DNA of 30,865 bases from a virus. The stretch spans positions 1 through 30,865 of IMG/VR virus record IMGVR_UViG_3300042523_000251; one strand, 5' to 3'. How positions within the stretch are numbered: the first letter of the stretch is position 1; every line of letters starts with the position of its first letter. Of the stretch, positions 534-12,379 are shown one piece after another. The position numbers and the translations under genes are program-made. The notes under the pieces were generated by a model. The model was not told the origin of the DNA. It saw only the letters and a program-made list of their open reading frames with translations, and ran no database searches.

Positions 534-1070
534 ATGAGTAGACCGATTGCATTACGCGCAGCTAAAGAAGCCCTAGACAATGTCGGTGTGCAGGAGACCG
601 GGGACAACAGAGGCAAGGCGGTTGAAATCTATCAAGCCTCTACCATCCCACCCGTACCACCCGGTAGCCCTTGGTGTGCCGCCTTTGTGGTGTACAGGCT
701 ACGGAATGCCGCTCATGACCTAGCGCTGACAATCCCGCTAGACTGGCCACGCTCGGCTTACTGCCCCGATCATGGCAACTGGGCAAGGCGTACCAAGAAC
801 TGGCTATCGGTAAAGGATGCGGAAGCAGACCCTACCAAGGTGCGTATCGGTGACCTTGCTTGCTTCTGGTTTGCACCTTTGAACAGGCTTGCCCATATTG
901 GGATTGTAATAGGTGTATTCCCTTGGGGTGTCAAGACCGTAGAGGGCAACACGAGTCCAGAGATGGAAGACGAAGACAAGGTAGAGCGCGAGGGTGACGG
1001 GGTCTACCGTAAGGCTAGAGCATGGCGAGAGCTTGGAAGCAACGGCGGCTTTGTAAGCATCGACTGGTAA
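534..1070 (+). CDS. Endolysin, CHAP/NlpC-P60-like cysteine peptidoglycan hydrolase
   Basis: A 178-residue protein likely to cut peptidoglycan at the end of infection. The papain-like catalytic pattern is visible: Cys48 in PWCAAF, His121 in AHIGIVIG, and a polar third residue in VEGNT (Glu137 or Asn139). It starts with a short helical segment like many CHAP amidases/endopeptidases and has no signal peptide, so release through a holin is expected. No separate cell-wall-binding domain is visible. The ATG has AAGGAG 11 bases upstream. The gene follows the tail module and ends at a bidirectional terminator. A tail-associated hydrolase is the main alternative; the small size favours a free endolysin. 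Confidence 0.8.
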   Translation: MSRPIALRAAKEALDNVGVQETGDNRGKAVEIYQASTIPPVPPGSPWCAAFVVYRLRNAAHDLALTIPLDWPRSAYCPDHGNWARRTKNWLSVKDAEADPTKVRIGDLACFWFAPLNRLAHIGIVIGVFPWGVKTVEGNTSPEMEDEDKVEREGDGVYRKARAWRELGSNGGFVSIDW

Positions 1071-8547: not shown

Positions 8548-8553
8548 ATCTAT

Positions 8554-8701
8554 CGGTACAAAAAACGGTACGCTTAAGAGTTGTACTCTTGTACCGTTAG
8601 GATAAATCCCCCTTTGAAAACCCCCTATGGGCAATCAGTACCGCCCGCTTAGGCGGGCATACTGATGCCCATTATAGGGAGTGGGTCGGAACTTTGTACC
8701 G
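8554..8701. other. Repeat and hairpin cluster in the gap after the helicase gene; possible replication origin
   Basis: The octamer CGGTACAA occurs at 8554-8561 and, inverted, at 8589-8596 and 8694-8701; CGGTAC occurs again at 8566-8571 and inverted at 8638-8643. Between them, 8623-8679 is a near-palindrome: CCCTA, GGGCA, TCAGTA and GCCCGC pair in order with GCGGGC, TACTGA, TGCCC and TAGGG around the loop TTAG. No T-run follows the hairpin, arguing against a simple terminator. Repeats plus a large hairpin next to replication genes suggest an origin, but GGTAC also occurs elsewhere in this genome. Confidence 0.35.
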
Positions 8702-8715
8702 CCATAAATAAGTGT

Positions 8716-8745
8716 TTGACAATATCCACCGAGTGGGTATATAAC
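8716..8745 (+). promoter_or_regulatory. Sigma-70-like promoter for the 8797-12379 gene block
   Basis: TTGACA at 8716-8721 and TATAAC at 8740-8745 are separated by 18 bases. It is the best consensus promoter in the gap 8548-8796. A leader of about 45 bases follows, with a GGGC/GCCC hairpin (8770-8781) and AAGGAG (8782-8787) before the ATG at 8797. ATGTGGCAATAGTG at 8747-8760 loosely resembles the element found before three structural genes. Confidence 0.6.
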
Positions 8746-8796
8746 TATGTGGCAATAGTGCCAACGACCGGGCAGTAGCCCAAGGAGTTTGACGAT

Positions 8797-9285
8797 ATGG
8801 GATTCTTTGCACAGCATGGGAAGTACAGTGAAGGCAGCGGGAAAAAGTTCTCCGTTGCCGAGCAGGGCATTTACATTTGCGCCCTCATTGATTGCGAAGC
8901 CGTACAGGGTAAGAGCTTTGACGATCCAAACGTTCTCGAACCTAATTTCAAATGGGTATTTGAAACCACGGAAGTCGGTGACGATGACGGCCAGCCTTTC
9001 CGCTTCATTCAGTACACCAAGACCTACTACGGAAACGAGAAAGCCAAACTTACAATCCTGCTTGATGGCATGGTTGGACGCATGACTAACGCGCAGTTTG
9101 CCGCACTTGACATCGAAGCGCTCAAGGGCAAGTCATGGCAAGTGGTCGTAGGCACCCGCCAAAAGATGAACGGTGAACTTACCAATGTCATCGAGACAGT
9201 CAAGCCTGTAAAGGTTGCAGCTACAAAGCCCCTCAAAAAGGCTGTGCCGGTAACGGATGACATCGCAGATCCGTTTGACGAATAG
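8797..9285 (+). CDS. Putative phage single-stranded DNA-binding protein
   Basis: 162 residues. The body is strand-rich with aromatic residues (about 25-125), and the last residues are acidic and end DDIADPFDE, like the C-terminal tails of SSB proteins that recruit replication partners. A Lys-rich linker (about 132-150) separates body and tail. The pattern GIYICALIDCE near residue 27 to a Gly-Lys-Ser-Trp segment near residue 110 resembles phage single-strand-binding/DUF669-type proteins found in replication modules; I cannot decide which family. Strong SD (AAGGAG, 9 bases) and a good promoter suggest high expression, which suits this role. Confidence 0.5.
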   Translation: MGFFAQHGKYSEGSGKKFSVAEQGIYICALIDCEAVQGKSFDDPNVLEPNFKWVFETTEVGDDDGQPFRFIQYTKTYYGNEKAKLTILLDGMVGRMTNAQFAALDIEALKGKSWQVVVGTRQKMNGELTNVIETVKPVKVAATKPLKKAVPVTDDIADPFDE

Positions 9286-9519
9286 GTGAGAAACCACTAC
9301 ACGGTCGGCAAGCTTGACGCGCTGGCGGTAATCGAAGACTGGGGGCTGGACTTTGTGTCCGGCTCCATTCTCAAATACCTACAGCGGCAGGAGCATAAAG
9401 GGCAGGCGGAAGAAGACCGGCTAAAGGTTCTCTGGTACGCCGCTTACCTTGTGACACACTCCAGGGAGTATGCCGACCGGGTAGTAACTGATGCCAAGGA
9501 GATAAGTAATGGCAGGTAG
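9286..9519 (+). CDS. DUF3310 protein
   Basis: 77 residues. It matches the small phage DUF3310 pattern: HYTVGKLDALAVIEDWGL at the start, GSILKYLQRQEHKG in the middle and EDRLKVLWYAAYL at the end. The family is common in phage nucleotide-metabolism neighbourhoods, but its biochemical role is not settled. Start is GTG immediately after the preceding TAG, so expression probably depends on coupling. The 3' end overlaps the next gene by 11 bases. ThyX lies one gene away, consistent with a nucleotide-pool role. Confidence 0.7.
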   Translation: MRNHYTVGKLDALAVIEDWGLDFVSGSILKYLQRQEHKGQAEEDRLKVLWYAAYLVTHSREYADRVVTDAKEISNGR

Positions 9520-9922
9520 ACCAAACGAATCGGTGATTGCTAACCGCGCAAAGCGGCAGCATCTTTTAGATCGGTATGAGACCTTGGTCGCTGAAGGCAT
9601 GAAATGCCATGAAGCGGCAAGGGCTGTAGGATTCCAGCACACCACCGTCAACCGCTGGCTGAAAGAGCGGACTGAAGAACAACTGAAGAGCATTGAAGCC
9701 CATCGGATGAACCTTTCCGGCGGTGGCTTTCCTTCCGCCCTTGAACGCTTGCGGGCTGGCATGACGGTACGCCGACACGCTGCCGCTTGGTTCCTCCAGT
9801 TGGTTGATGGCAAGATATGCCTTTACCTCATTGATGGCGCTGGTAACCGGCACTACAGCCGGGTAGCGTCTTTCGGTTCTGCTGATGTCTTAGCTTTCGA
9901 CTGGGAGATATACAACGGATGA
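9509..9922 (+). CDS. HTH domain fused to a Tad2/DUF2829-like domain
   Basis: 137 residues. Residues about 15-52 form a helix-turn-helix (HEAARAVGFQHTTVNRWLKE). Residues about 70-137 show the DUF2829 pattern: GFPSALERLRAGMTVRRH, a strand-rich middle, and SADVLAFDWEIY at the end. DUF2829 proteins include Tad2, which binds cyclic ADP-ribose-type signals and blocks Thoeris. An HTH in front of such a domain is unusual and suggests a ligand-responsive regulator, or simply a small HTH adaptor. The start is supported by AAGGAGATAAGTA. The stop overlaps thyX. The Trp usually seen after the Arg is displaced here (RRHAAAW), so ligand binding is uncertain. Confidence 0.6.
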   Translation: MAGRPNESVIANRAKRQHLLDRYETLVAEGMKCHEAARAVGFQHTTVNRWLKERTEEQLKSIEAHRMNLSGGGFPSALERLRAGMTVRRHAAAWFLQLVDGKICLYLIDGAGNRHYSRVASFGSADVLAFDWEIYNG

Positions 9923-10548
9923 CAAAACTAATCTGGATCACACCGGAAGCGGAGCAGGTCATCGGATACTGCGCAAGGGTCAGCAACCCCGCAAACCAAG
10001 ACAACCCAGACGTAGCCCGGTTGCTCTCTTACTGCATCAAACATGGTCACTGGTCAATCTTTGAGATGGCATCGATGTGCGTAGAAATCAAAACCACCCG
10101 TGCTATCGCACCGCAGATTCTGCGGCATCGTTCTTTTTCTTTCCAAGAGTTCAGCCAACGGTACGCAGAGGTTCACGACTTCCCTATTCTGGGCGAGATG
10201 CGGCTTGCTGGTACAACTAATCGGCAAAGCTCACAACCGATGCCAGAGCGGGCAGAGTTGGATGCCGAGATGCAGGGAGTCATCTTAGACGCTGAGCTAT
10301 CCGTATCTCGTGGCTACTGGACATATAACAAACTTATCAAAGCCGGTATCGCTGCGGAAACGGCAAGAATGGTACTACCGCTTTGCTGTCCGACCACCTT
10401 GTACATGAGCGGCACGATACGGTCTTGGATTCACTACGTGCAGCTAAGGACGCAGGACGATACGCAACTAGAGCATAGGGAGATAGCAGACAGCATCAAG
10501 GCTTTGATGGCTGAACACCTGCCAATCACAATGGGAGTAATCAAATGA
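9919..10548 (+). CDS. thyX: Flavin-dependent thymidylate synthase ThyX
   Basis: 209 residues. The ThyX signature RHRSFSFQEFSQRY is at residues 69-82, preceded by HWSIFEM (44-50), and followed by ETARMVLP and IRSWIHYVQLR with a C-terminal TQLEHREIA. The enzyme makes dTMP from dUMP using FAD, NADPH and methylene-tetrahydrofolate, boosting thymidine supply for phage DNA synthesis. The length is usual for the family. The gene is coupled to its neighbours: the ATG overlaps the upstream stop (ATGA) and its stop overlaps the next ATG. GGGAGATATACAACGG precedes the start. It lies among three Tad2-like genes, which is notable. Confidence 0.93.
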   Translation: MTKLIWITPEAEQVIGYCARVSNPANQDNPDVARLLSYCIKHGHWSIFEMASMCVEIKTTRAIAPQILRHRSFSFQEFSQRYAEVHDFPILGEMRLAGTTNRQSSQPMPERAELDAEMQGVILDAELSVSRGYWTYNKLIKAGIAAETARMVLPLCCPTTLYMSGTIRSWIHYVQLRTQDDTQLEHREIADSIKALMAEHLPITMGVIK

Positions 10549-10784
10549 GATTTGGAGAAGTGATACAAGCCTTGATGGCTGGTGGCGGTAACGCCGTATG
10601 GCGCGGTGAGTGGGGAGGAGCCGTATTCCTGCGGTACTCCGAAGTGTGGAATATCTTTGAACTGCATGGCCCAAAGGGACGGGTAACGCAACTTGAAGAG
10701 TTGAGCCTGTCCCCTGGTGATTTGTTTGCTACCGATTGGGCAGTAGTTGTACTTGATCCGCGAACCGGGGAGGTTGCAAGATGA
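10545..10784 (+). CDS. Tad2/DUF2829-like protein (second copy)
   Basis: 79 residues. It fits the DUF2829 frame: MRFGEVIQALMAGGGNAVWR, then EW, a strand-rich centre (GAVFLRYSEVW), and SLSPGDLFATDWAVV near the end. Tad2 proteins form small oligomers that hold gcADPR-type messengers and so silence Thoeris-type immunity; that role is known for the family and only inferred here. A two-residue insertion (GGGN) before the conserved Arg differs from the usual spacing. It is coupled by 4-base overlaps to thyX upstream and the third copy downstream. Confidence 0.6.
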   Translation: MRFGEVIQALMAGGGNAVWRGEWGGAVFLRYSEVWNIFELHGPKGRVTQLEELSLSPGDLFATDWAVVVLDPRTGEVAR

Positions 10785-11053
10785 CATGGACACAAGCCGT
10801 AAGGGCAATGCGTAAAGGTCAGAAAGTTAGACGGCAAACATGGGATGCCCATGCTGGAGACCTTTGGATTTCTTTATCAAAAGTAGATGCACGAGAAGAT
10901 GGATTTGGAATATGCGAGTTTATAAACTCTAGCGACGATCTAAAAGGACTAGCAAAAGCATATGAGCGAATCGGGGTAAATGTTACGCCGTCATTCCATA
11001 TAAATCGTGCTATGGCAGAAACACTGGCAACCGATTGGGAGATAACCAAATGA
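10781..11053 (+). CDS. Tad2/DUF2829-like protein (third copy)
   Basis: 90 residues, the closest of the three to the family pattern: MTWTQAVRAMRKGQKVRRQTW at the start, LWISLSK in the middle, and ETLATDWEITK at the C-terminus. The inferred role is sequestration of a cyclic nucleotide immune signal (Tad2 function). Base use differs from the neighbours: I counted 46 G+C in 120 bases at 10861-10980, lower than the surrounding genes, which suggests separate acquisition. It starts at an ATG overlapping the previous TGA and ends overlapping the next ATG. Confidence 0.65.
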   Translation: MTWTQAVRAMRKGQKVRRQTWDAHAGDLWISLSKVDAREDGFGICEFINSSDDLKGLAKAYERIGVNVTPSFHINRAMAETLATDWEITK

Positions 11054-11238
11054 TACCTTTTGCTATTGGTGCTTTGGTCGGGGCTGGATGCGTGGCGATA
11101 GGGTCAGAACTCTATACACGCTGGTTGTATGCTGATGTCAAGAAACGGGCTAAAGCCCAAGGCATCAGTAAGGATAAACTGCGCGCTGCTATGCTCTGGG
11201 CTACCAGCGCGGAGATACGAAAGAATCTTGATGAGTAG
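11050..11238 (+). CDS. Small membrane protein of unknown function
   Basis: 62 residues from ATG 11050, with GGGAGATAACCAA directly upstream; the ATG overlaps the stop of the third Tad2-like gene. The N-terminal 20 residues form one membrane segment (PFAIGALVGAGCVAIGSEL). The rest is a basic, helical cytoplasmic-type tail (WLYADVKKRAKAQG, then DKLRAAMLW). An upstream ATG at 11035 lacks its own site and would overlap more. Membrane anchoring next to candidate anti-defence genes is notable, but no function can be assigned. The stop overlaps the methyltransferase start. Confidence 0.55.
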   Translation: MIPFAIGALVGAGCVAIGSELYTRWLYADVKKRAKAQGISKDKLRAAMLWATSAEIRKNLDE

Positions 11239-12379
11239 AGTAATCAATAAGGAGATTGAGCAGGTCGCTATTGACCTGCTCAAGCATCATCCACGCAACG
11301 CTAACAACGGTGATGTGGAAGCCATCAAGAAGAGCCTAGCAGTTAATGGCTGGTACGGCTCTGTGGTGGCTAACCTGACCACAAAGCACATCCTAGCGGG
11401 AAATCATCGGGTCATGGCTGCCAAGGCTCTAGGCTGGGAAACCGTACCTGTTCAATGGGTTGACGTTACTCCCGAAGAAGAGCTGCGGATTCTTGTAGTA
11501 GACAACCGCACTACCCGTATTGGGCAAGATGACACTACCAAGATTACCGACATCCTCGCTGAGCTTGCGAATACGCCTATCGGCTTAGATGGTACCGGGT
11601 ACGGCGCAGCTGACCTTGATGCTTTGATTGATGAACTCGCTGGTACTGCTGACTCTGCCGAGTTGCTAACCGATCCAGACGAAGTACCGGAGGAAGTCGA
11701 GACACGATGCAAGCCTGGAGACCTATGGATTCTGGGTAGACATCGATTGCTTTGTGGTGACAGTACAAAGGCTGATGATGTGGCACGGCTGATGGATGGT
11801 GCTGTGGTAAACGGCATTGTTACTGACCCGCCATACGGCATAGGTATTGATGGTCAAAAAGAAAGCATAAGCGCAAACCCAAAACATAACCGCAAGGCGC
11901 ATGAGTTTATGGGATGGGATAAAGAAAGACCGTCAAAAGAGTTGTTTGATTTATTGCTATCGTTTGATTGCCCTACAGCAATCTGGGGTGGCAATTACTT
12001 TGCTGATTTCCTTCCTGCATCTAGGGGATGGATTTACTGGAACAAAGGTCAAGATGGTTTGACTATGTCCGATGGCGAACTTGCATGGACAAACTGCGTT
12101 AAACCTTTACGGGCAATCGTTGTGAATAGAGCGGCTTTACAAGGTTCAGTACATCCAACACAAAAACCGATGCAGGTTATTGAATATGCTCTTGAATACA
12201 TCAATGTTGAAACCGGCAATATATACGATCCGTTCTTAGGCTCTGGTACTACATTGATTGCAGCCGAGAAAACTAATCGCAAATGTTACGGGATGGAAAT
12301 CAGCCCTAAGTATTGCGATGTCATTATTCAGCGATGGGAAAACGCCACAGGGCAGAAGGCGGTGCTAGATGAAGGGTAA
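11231..12379 (+). CDS. ParB-like nuclease domain fused to N6-adenine DNA methyltransferase
   Basis: 382 residues. The N-terminal ParB/Srx-type domain (about 1-100) contains HPRNANNGDVEAIKKSLAVNG and the box AGNHRVMAAKALG (56-68). The methyltransferase domain has catalytic DPPYG at 199-203 followed by the SAM-binding DPFLGSGTT at 333-341, the order seen in beta-class enzymes. It should methylate adenine (or N4 of cytosine) in DNA and, with Dcm, protect phage DNA from restriction. A+T content rises in the methyltransferase half, suggesting domain exchange. ATG 11231 was chosen over 11129 because the longer version runs through the previous gene. Confidence 0.85.
   Translation: MSRVINKEIEQVAIDLLKHHPRNANNGDVEAIKKSLAVNGWYGSVVANLTTKHILAGNHRVMAAKALGWETVPVQWVDVTPEEELRILVVDNRTTRIGQDDTTKITDILAELANTPIGLDGTGYGAADLDALIDELAGTADSAELLTDPDEVPEEVETRCKPGDLWILGRHRLLCGDSTKADDVARLMDGAVVNGIVTDPPYGIGIDGQKESISANPKHNRKAHEFMGWDKERPSKELFDLLLSFDCPTAIWGGNYFADFLPASRGWIYWNKGQDGLTMSDGELAWTNCVKPLRAIVVNRAALQGSVHPTQKPMQVIEYALEYINVETGNIYDPFLGSGTTLIAAEKTNRKCYGMEISPKYCDVIIQRWENATGQKAVLDEG

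Follow-up and report, generated by a model that had tools for sequence, protein, structure and literature searches.

The window analysed here is the whole of the viral record IMGVR_UViG_3300042523_000251 (30,865 bases). It carries an early-type operon in which most genes overlap by 4 bases and which encodes, together with a flavin-dependent thymidylate synthase (thyX), three small proteins that a first-pass annotation had described as a Tad2/DUF2829-like candidate anti-defence cluster. The three open reading frames lie where that annotation placed them (9509–9922, 10545–10784 and 10781–11053), and thyX (9919–10548) sits between the first and the second. The features of the operon are the following.

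8716–8744, + strand: promoter-like site TTGACA-N18-TATAA, just 5′ of the operon; the sole such site in the window (1 found vs. 0.05 expected)
8797–9285, + strand: operon gene 1, weakly similar to phage replication initiation protein NGO0469 (NCBIfam NF046043, E 3.2e-6, under the cut-off)
9286–9519, + strand: DUF3310 protein, phage nucleotide-kinase-like family (PF11753, 38.2 bits); overlaps the HTH-Tad2 gene
9509–9922, + strand: HTH-Tad2-like fusion (the first protein), 137 aa (PF13384 HTH_23, 30.1 bits; PF11195, 14.2 bits; model pLDDT 81; in 73/73 spanning contigs)
9551–9667, + strand: helix-turn-helix (HTH) domain of the fusion, residues 15–53 (HTH_23 match; structural matches)
9713–9919, + strand: predicted Tad2-fold domain of the fusion, residues 69–137; a minimal form without the long β2–β5 insertion, with a conserved DGAGNR loop
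9919–10548, + strand: ThyX, flavin-dependent thymidylate synthase (TIGR02170, 154 bits); presence varies among relatives
10545–10784, + strand: second Tad2-like protein, 79 aa (PF11195, 24.4 bits; pLDDT 88); ATGA overlap with thyX
10781–11053, + strand: third Tad2-like protein, 90 aa, an A+T-rich cassette (PF11195, 26.8 bits; GC3 0.31); ATGA overlap with the second
11050–11238, + strand: small ORF of 62 residues with a hydrophobic N-terminus; ATGA overlap with the third Tad2-like gene; last of the overlapping gene run
11231–12379, + strand: DNA methyltransferase (N6_N4_Mtase plus a weak ParB_N region; PF01555, 73.6 bits); a swapped gene in the same variable zone

A TTGAC..TA[AT]A site precedes the same first operon gene in 34 of 41 relatives. 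The hexamer CGGTAC is over-represented in the window (44 copies vs. 13 expected), with five copies in 249 bases at 8548–8796. A Pfam search with the ORF at 11050–11238 returned no family match, and a similar ORF recurs in one relative (L189:2036–2257). Elsewhere in the window, the stretches 534–1070 (+) and 1562–2592 (−) hold ordinary phage genes, namely a CHAP-domain-like ORF (just below cut-off) and Mu Gam-like and ERF recombination genes.

Family relationship to Tad2 and predicted fold of two of the proteins

Viruses are known to use Tad2 as a sponge for alarm signals of bacteria; the SPO1-type sponge is a homotetramer that binds two gcADPR molecules and protects the phage from Thoeris (or CBASS). 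When the whole record was scanned with the Tad2 family model PF11195 (formerly DUF2829), only three places responded, all of them at the three ORFs, with E values of 6.1e-6 (10781–10894), 1.3e-5 (10545–10748) and 0.0086 (9728–9910). Relative to the curated gathering score of 25 bits, the third protein lies above the threshold (26.8 bits), the second falls 0.6 bit short of it (24.4 bits, E 4.2e-5) and the C-terminus of the first does not reach it (14.2 bits, E 0.066). Close relatives of the second protein in contigs G005 and G014 score 26.3 and 25.6 bits, neighbours included in the frame. SPO1 Tad2 and six phage relatives obtain 71–93 bits with the same model, which makes the three window proteins remote members of the family.

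Direct comparison by phmmer linked the third protein to SPO1 Tad2 at E 0.012, and family profiles of each window protein were aligned by hhalign to a profile of SPO1 Tad2 and its six relatives with E values, each from a single comparison, of 1.7e-7 (third), 1.7e-9 (second) and 1.6e-7 (first), compared with 0.23 and 0.11 for unrelated-terminase controls. Profile searches of the PDB returned Tad2/AcrIIA7 chains as the best matches of the second family (E 3e-6 to 8e-5) and the same chains at the top for the third (E 0.002 to 0.17); for the fusion, Tad2 chains (E 0.005 to 0.12) ranked second after one match to the HTH region. A tblastn search for direct homologues in isolated phages found none at E 0.01. 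Chance or low-complexity similarity to Tad2 was considered and ruled out by the terminase controls together with a panel of divergent representatives of the small genes, 23 of 24 of which match PF11195 and no other Pfam family.

All three products thus carry a Tad2-like (PF11195) domain, and in this respect the sequence pattern that the first-pass annotation saw in all of them is borne out. Its details fit less well: the R..W spacing is absent from the first protein, which reads R88-R89-H-A-A-A-W94, and the closing DLxAxDW motif takes the form DVLAFDW in the first and ETLATDW in the third.

AlphaFold models were built for the second protein (29 sequences; pLDDT 88) and for the fusion (14 sequences; pLDDT 81 overall and 82–91 in its C-terminal domain). 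Structural comparison by VIA-align, which realigns only chains proposed by Foldseek, placed every one of the ten Tad2/AcrIIA7 entries at the top of the PDB ranking for both. For the second protein these reached Z 8.7–9.9 with an rmsd of 1.8–2.1 Å over 64–66 residues, and the next unrelated fold followed at Z 3.8; for residues 69–137 of the fusion they reached Z 9.2–10.3 with an rmsd of 1.7–1.9 Å over 60–65 residues, and the next unrelated row, at Z 5.7, was an HTH protein aligned on the N-terminal part. HTH proteins are likewise the best structural matches of fusion residues 3–66 (TnpE, Z 5.7). With Foldseek alone, neither model had a PDB match at E <0.001, and against viral models there were only six matches below 0.001, five of them named Tad2-like; the structural family match is drawn from the gap that follows the Tad2 rows in VIA-align and from these Foldseek matches among viral models. 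Among the viral models none stood out as an HTH-Tad2 fusion, an absence that proves nothing. The second protein and the C-terminus of the fusion are predicted to have the Tad2 fold. Placed purely by profile matches and modelled fold, the fusion C-terminus is a remote Tad2-like relative. The likeness to Tad2/DUF2829 claimed in the first pass is therefore upheld by PF11195 and hhalign profiles for all three proteins and by AlphaFold and VIA-align for two, an outcome opposite to the one named there as telling against it (no DUF2829 match, or no Tad2 fold).

Clade-wide exchange of never-duplicated cassettes under purifying selection

Scans of viral contigs yielded 181 loci, 106 of them non-redundant, in which the gene order is kept: first gene, DUF3310, HTH-Tad2, (thyX), small Tad2-like copies, (methyltransferase), terminase. 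Across the 73 contigs that span DUF3310 to terminase, the terminase is 84–99% identical and the HTH-Tad2 gene is present in every one, including all contigs that were located via the small copies instead of the fusion. Presence or absence of thyX, the methyltransferase and the small Tad2-like genes differs between relatives within this one operon slot, and thyX itself is swapped as a cassette. At the site of the methyltransferase (11231–12379), between the Tad2-like genes and the small terminase, near-identical phages share 60–98% identity or lack the gene altogether, so that further genes with a possible anti-restriction role are present in the variable zone. When bacterial genomes were scanned with the fusion family and the terminase, no relative turned up from which a host or its defences could have been identified.

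A PF11195 search of 29 contigs gave 2–6 matches per record, compared with one full match apiece in seven named phages with Tad2. One 62-kb record among the contigs looks chimeric: L099 (IMGVR_UViG_3300042429_000522, 62,434 bases) contains two cluster versions at twice the usual length and could represent two related phages joined during assembly. Several relatives also have a further, solitary Tad2-like gene on the opposite strand about 8–24 kb off the cluster (e.g., G005:24952-25128, G007:17514-17723, G004:2523-2693 and G009:17816-17986); the window has none.

The small Tad2-like copies (n = 177) fall into 23 clusters at 40% identity, and a pooled profile of their representatives, compared with the whole PDB, retrieved Tad2-type chains only (E 6e-8 to 2e-5). 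Their ends are constant (M..EA..AL..G..VRR..W and D....DWEI, with conserved positions G15, R20, W23, D59, D64 and W65), and the middle is hypervariable, low in information and of varying length. What is new here is that 23 divergent Tad2-like clusters shuffle in one slot of a clade whose terminase is 84–99% identical. Turnover is general among the small proteins of early phage operons, and the copies might be no more than fast-evolving accessory proteins without a defence role, for example in early host take-over, that share an ancient fold. We consider this highly improbable, since 23 of the 24 divergent representatives find the Tad2 family alone and known members of that family act in counter-defence (PMC12043709).

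Copies within one contig are strongly diverged: their closest pair is 24% identical in the median and never more than 36%. Recent tandem duplication, which would raise copy number for dose, was examined as an origin of the copies and is ruled out by these values. Among the 22 contigs with at least two extra copies, a like pair occurs in 0 vs. 2.8 expected (P 0.035), which speaks for a non-redundant set and not for dose. The proposal of the first-pass annotation that the diverged proteins could have different specificities agrees with the 23 clusters, the low identity within contigs and the lack of like pairs. Median dN/dS values of 0.11 and 0.14 for the two classes of fusion described below, 0.16 for the second gene, 0.25 for the third and 0.155 for ThyX demonstrate purifying selection.

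The third gene has a GC3 of 0.31, compared with 0.48–0.68 in the upstream operon genes and 0.45–0.49 in the two downstream. Its relative A+T richness had been noted before, and the count given then is exact: 46 G+C in 120 bases at 10861–10980, a value as low as which is reached by 1% of the 120-base stretches of the window. The separate acquisition suggested on these grounds stands in part. GC3 is low in every contig that has this cassette (0.327 ± 0.022 in 10 distinct copies), so a foreign-origin or mobile cassette is indicated and not a recent gain by one phage. Acquisition by this phage alone in recent time was ruled out, as the low GC3 is common to its relatives.

Pocket residues and candidate ligands

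In Tad2, gcADPR is held by the loops β1–β2, β3–β4 and β4–α3, and dinucleotides bind at an insertion between β2 and β5 (review PMC12043709). We inferred pocket positions from conservation and the loops named in that review. SPO1 Tad2 and its six relatives have invariant G24, W25, N26 and G27, and W73, S76 and D79, in the pocket loops; the resulting signature, GWNG and WxxSxxD, is also visible in the aligned solved Tad2 structures. Natural Tad2s outside the reference set, which was gathered by similarity to SPO1 Tad2, may depart from this signature. It is absent from all three window proteins, and neither WNG nor W..S..D....DW occurs in any of the 271 Tad2-like ORFs of the clade. Binding of cyclic-ADP-ribose-type messengers, which the first-pass annotation named as the ligands of Tad2, is not supported for this set: with the SPO1-type signature missing, the ligand cannot be called cADPR-type.

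Individual residues differ in how far they are kept. The second protein retains R20, W23 and D59 and has Gly in place of N26 and Leu in place of W73; the third retains R18 and W21, has Glu in place of D79 and has lost W73. The β1–β2 loop of the fusion is three residues shorter, W73 is absent and the β2–β5 stretch is missing. In the 14-member alignment of the fusion, R89, A92, D109, G110, G112, R114, A120, F122 and D126 are invariant, and these residues map to the same three pocket loops in the model. Judged from sequence, the place of the pocket appears conserved and its chemistry different.

Pocket residues could simply have drifted, in which case the three proteins would be Tad2 sponges of the usual kind, for gcADPR, His-ADPR or cyclic dinucleotides. 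In favour, both modelled proteins have the same fold at rmsd 1.7–2.1 Å, and R22/W25 of SPO1 Tad2 has a counterpart in R20/W23 of the second protein and in R18/W21 of the third. However, none of the three has W73 or N26 of SPO1 Tad2, retention of S76 is doubtful, and the fusion domain is without the stretch where cyclic dinucleotides bind, so that we regard drift as quite unlikely.

With neither GWNG nor WxxSxxD in any member, the fold may serve another purpose. It could be a protein-binding or scaffold module that directly inhibits host defence proteins or other host enzymes, the variable middle tracking protein surfaces. AcrIIA7, whose structure entries are Tad2 (also titled HgmTad2), has been described as an anti-Cas9 gene (Uribe et al., cited in PMC6739867), and the missing ligand-pocket signature would fit such a role. 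By their entry titles, however, AcrIIA7/HgmTad2 structures were solved with 1′,2′-cADPR and cGG bound, and the remaining characterised members identified here bind nucleotides too, which leaves direct protein inhibition an unlikely explanation.

The best explanation, to which we assign a probability of about one half, is a set of divergent Tad2-family anti-defence cassettes, that is, Tad2-fold sponges with a specificity other than cADPR-type. A tailed phage would encode three divergent Tad2-fold members in one early-type operon, the two small proteins presumably acting as sponge-type anti-defence, with small alarm molecules of the host bound in an inter-subunit pocket of the Tad2 type. Because the pocket residues are unlike those of characterised Tad2s, the ligands are probably nucleotide-derived signals other than the gcADPR, His-ADPR and cyclic dinucleotides of known Tad2s, and because the set of each phage is non-redundant, several signals would be covered. 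A kept fold, dropped known pocket residues and more than 20 exchanged versions, never two alike per contig, are the look expected of a sponge library. With pockets that differ from all studied ones, the proteins may disarm alarm signals nobody has identified; at 70–140 residues they are easily expressed and could serve as probes for bacterial immune messengers not yet known.

The HTH-Tad2 fusion and comparison with known systems

Residues 15–53 of the fusion match HTH_23 above its cut-off of 24.6 bits, making the first protein a two-domain one. The first-pass annotation had overlooked this fusion, as it had the turnover of cassettes across the clade and the swapping of thyX itself. The fusion exists across the clade in two classes, whose N-termini are unrelated (11% identity) and whose Tad2-like domains are related (39%); the class 2 N-terminus differs from that of class 1 and has no Pfam match. 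Class 1 is tied to thyX, which is present in 49 of 61 class 1 vs. 2 of 25 class 2 contigs (Fisher 3.5e-10), an association that may come from joint exchange of neighbours.

This association bears on a reading in which the fusion regulates nucleotide metabolism, its domain sensing a nucleotide and controlling the thyX operon, with the small copies as partners and no anti-defence role. In most class 1 contigs the fusion and thyX share 4 bases; the fusion is a core gene, and DUF3310 and ThyX are nucleotide-metabolism-type genes. All of this would suit a metabolic regulator. Many contigs, however, have the fusion without thyX, the linkage is explicable by joint exchange, and the small copies turn over faster than a metabolic module would need, as does the methyltransferase; we hold this reading to be unlikely.

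An HTH fused to an anti-defence domain that represses its own operon has been worked out for AcrIIA15, and AcrIIA1, AcrIIA6, AcrIIA13–15 and AcrIF24 are listed as such HTH fusions (PMC10901769). On this anti-CRISPR precedent, self-regulation combined with anti-defence is the likeliest interpretation of the fusion, which by analogy with AcrIIA15 is probably the self-regulating member of the set. A candidate inverted pair (AACGGTAC/GTACCGTT) lies at 8564/8591 with three more CGGTAC 5′ of the operon; CGGTAC clusters of this kind occur in about 8 of 41 relatives, a minority, and a search for a conserved operator 5′ of the operon in the window and its relatives found none.

A ligand-driven switch is a bolder reading of the fusion than self-regulation. 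The core HTH-Tad2 protein would then be an alarm-signal sensor: by binding a host immune messenger in its altered pocket (DGAGNR loop), it would switch an operon whose exchangeable sponges are each specific for a different, as yet unknown signal. We consider this an improbable scenario; if true, it would amount to a phage-side receptor with a modular library of sponges. The fusion would also offer a test of whether phages sense immune signals besides absorbing them. That the fusion is a core gene without the Tad2 pocket tryptophans is atypical for an anti-defence protein and counts against the sponge-set explanation preferred above.

Among characterised proteins, one Tad2 fold binds several ligands (PMC12043709, PMC13299392). 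The window proteins resemble Bacillus phage SPO1 Tad2 (gp34.65; 8SME, 8SMF, 8SMG, 8WJE) in domain family, predicted fold (Z 8.7–10.3), start motif, D....DW ending and occurrence as small phage proteins. They are unlike it in scoring 14–27 bits as against 86, in having neither GWNG nor WxxSxxD, in the several divergent copies per genome and in the HTH fusion. HgmTad2 = AcrIIA7 (8KBI, 8KBJ, 8KBK), SptTad2 (8WJD) and Myroides Tad2 (8V3E, 9EIB) share the fold, which in them serves cADPR-type, His-ADPR and cyclic dinucleotide ligands; unlike the window proteins they are near SPO1 Tad2 in sequence (83–102 bits, A3 profile), and the β2–β5 part of HgmTad2 and SptTad2 is longer than here. With AcrIIA15, AcrIIA13/14, AcrIIA1 and AcrIF24 the fusion has in common an HTH (N-terminal in AcrIIA13–15) joined to an anti-defence-family domain in an anti-defence-like operon, whereas its C-terminal domain is Tad2-like instead of anti-CRISPR and its DNA binding is a prediction. 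A C-terminal Tad2-like domain is also found in the multi-domain proteins SKUL_8 of phage Skulduggery and crAss001_48-Tad2 of Bacteroides phage BS162P1; unlike in the fusion, a search of their N-terminal parts found no HTH, and the pocket signature is retained in their Tad2 domain.
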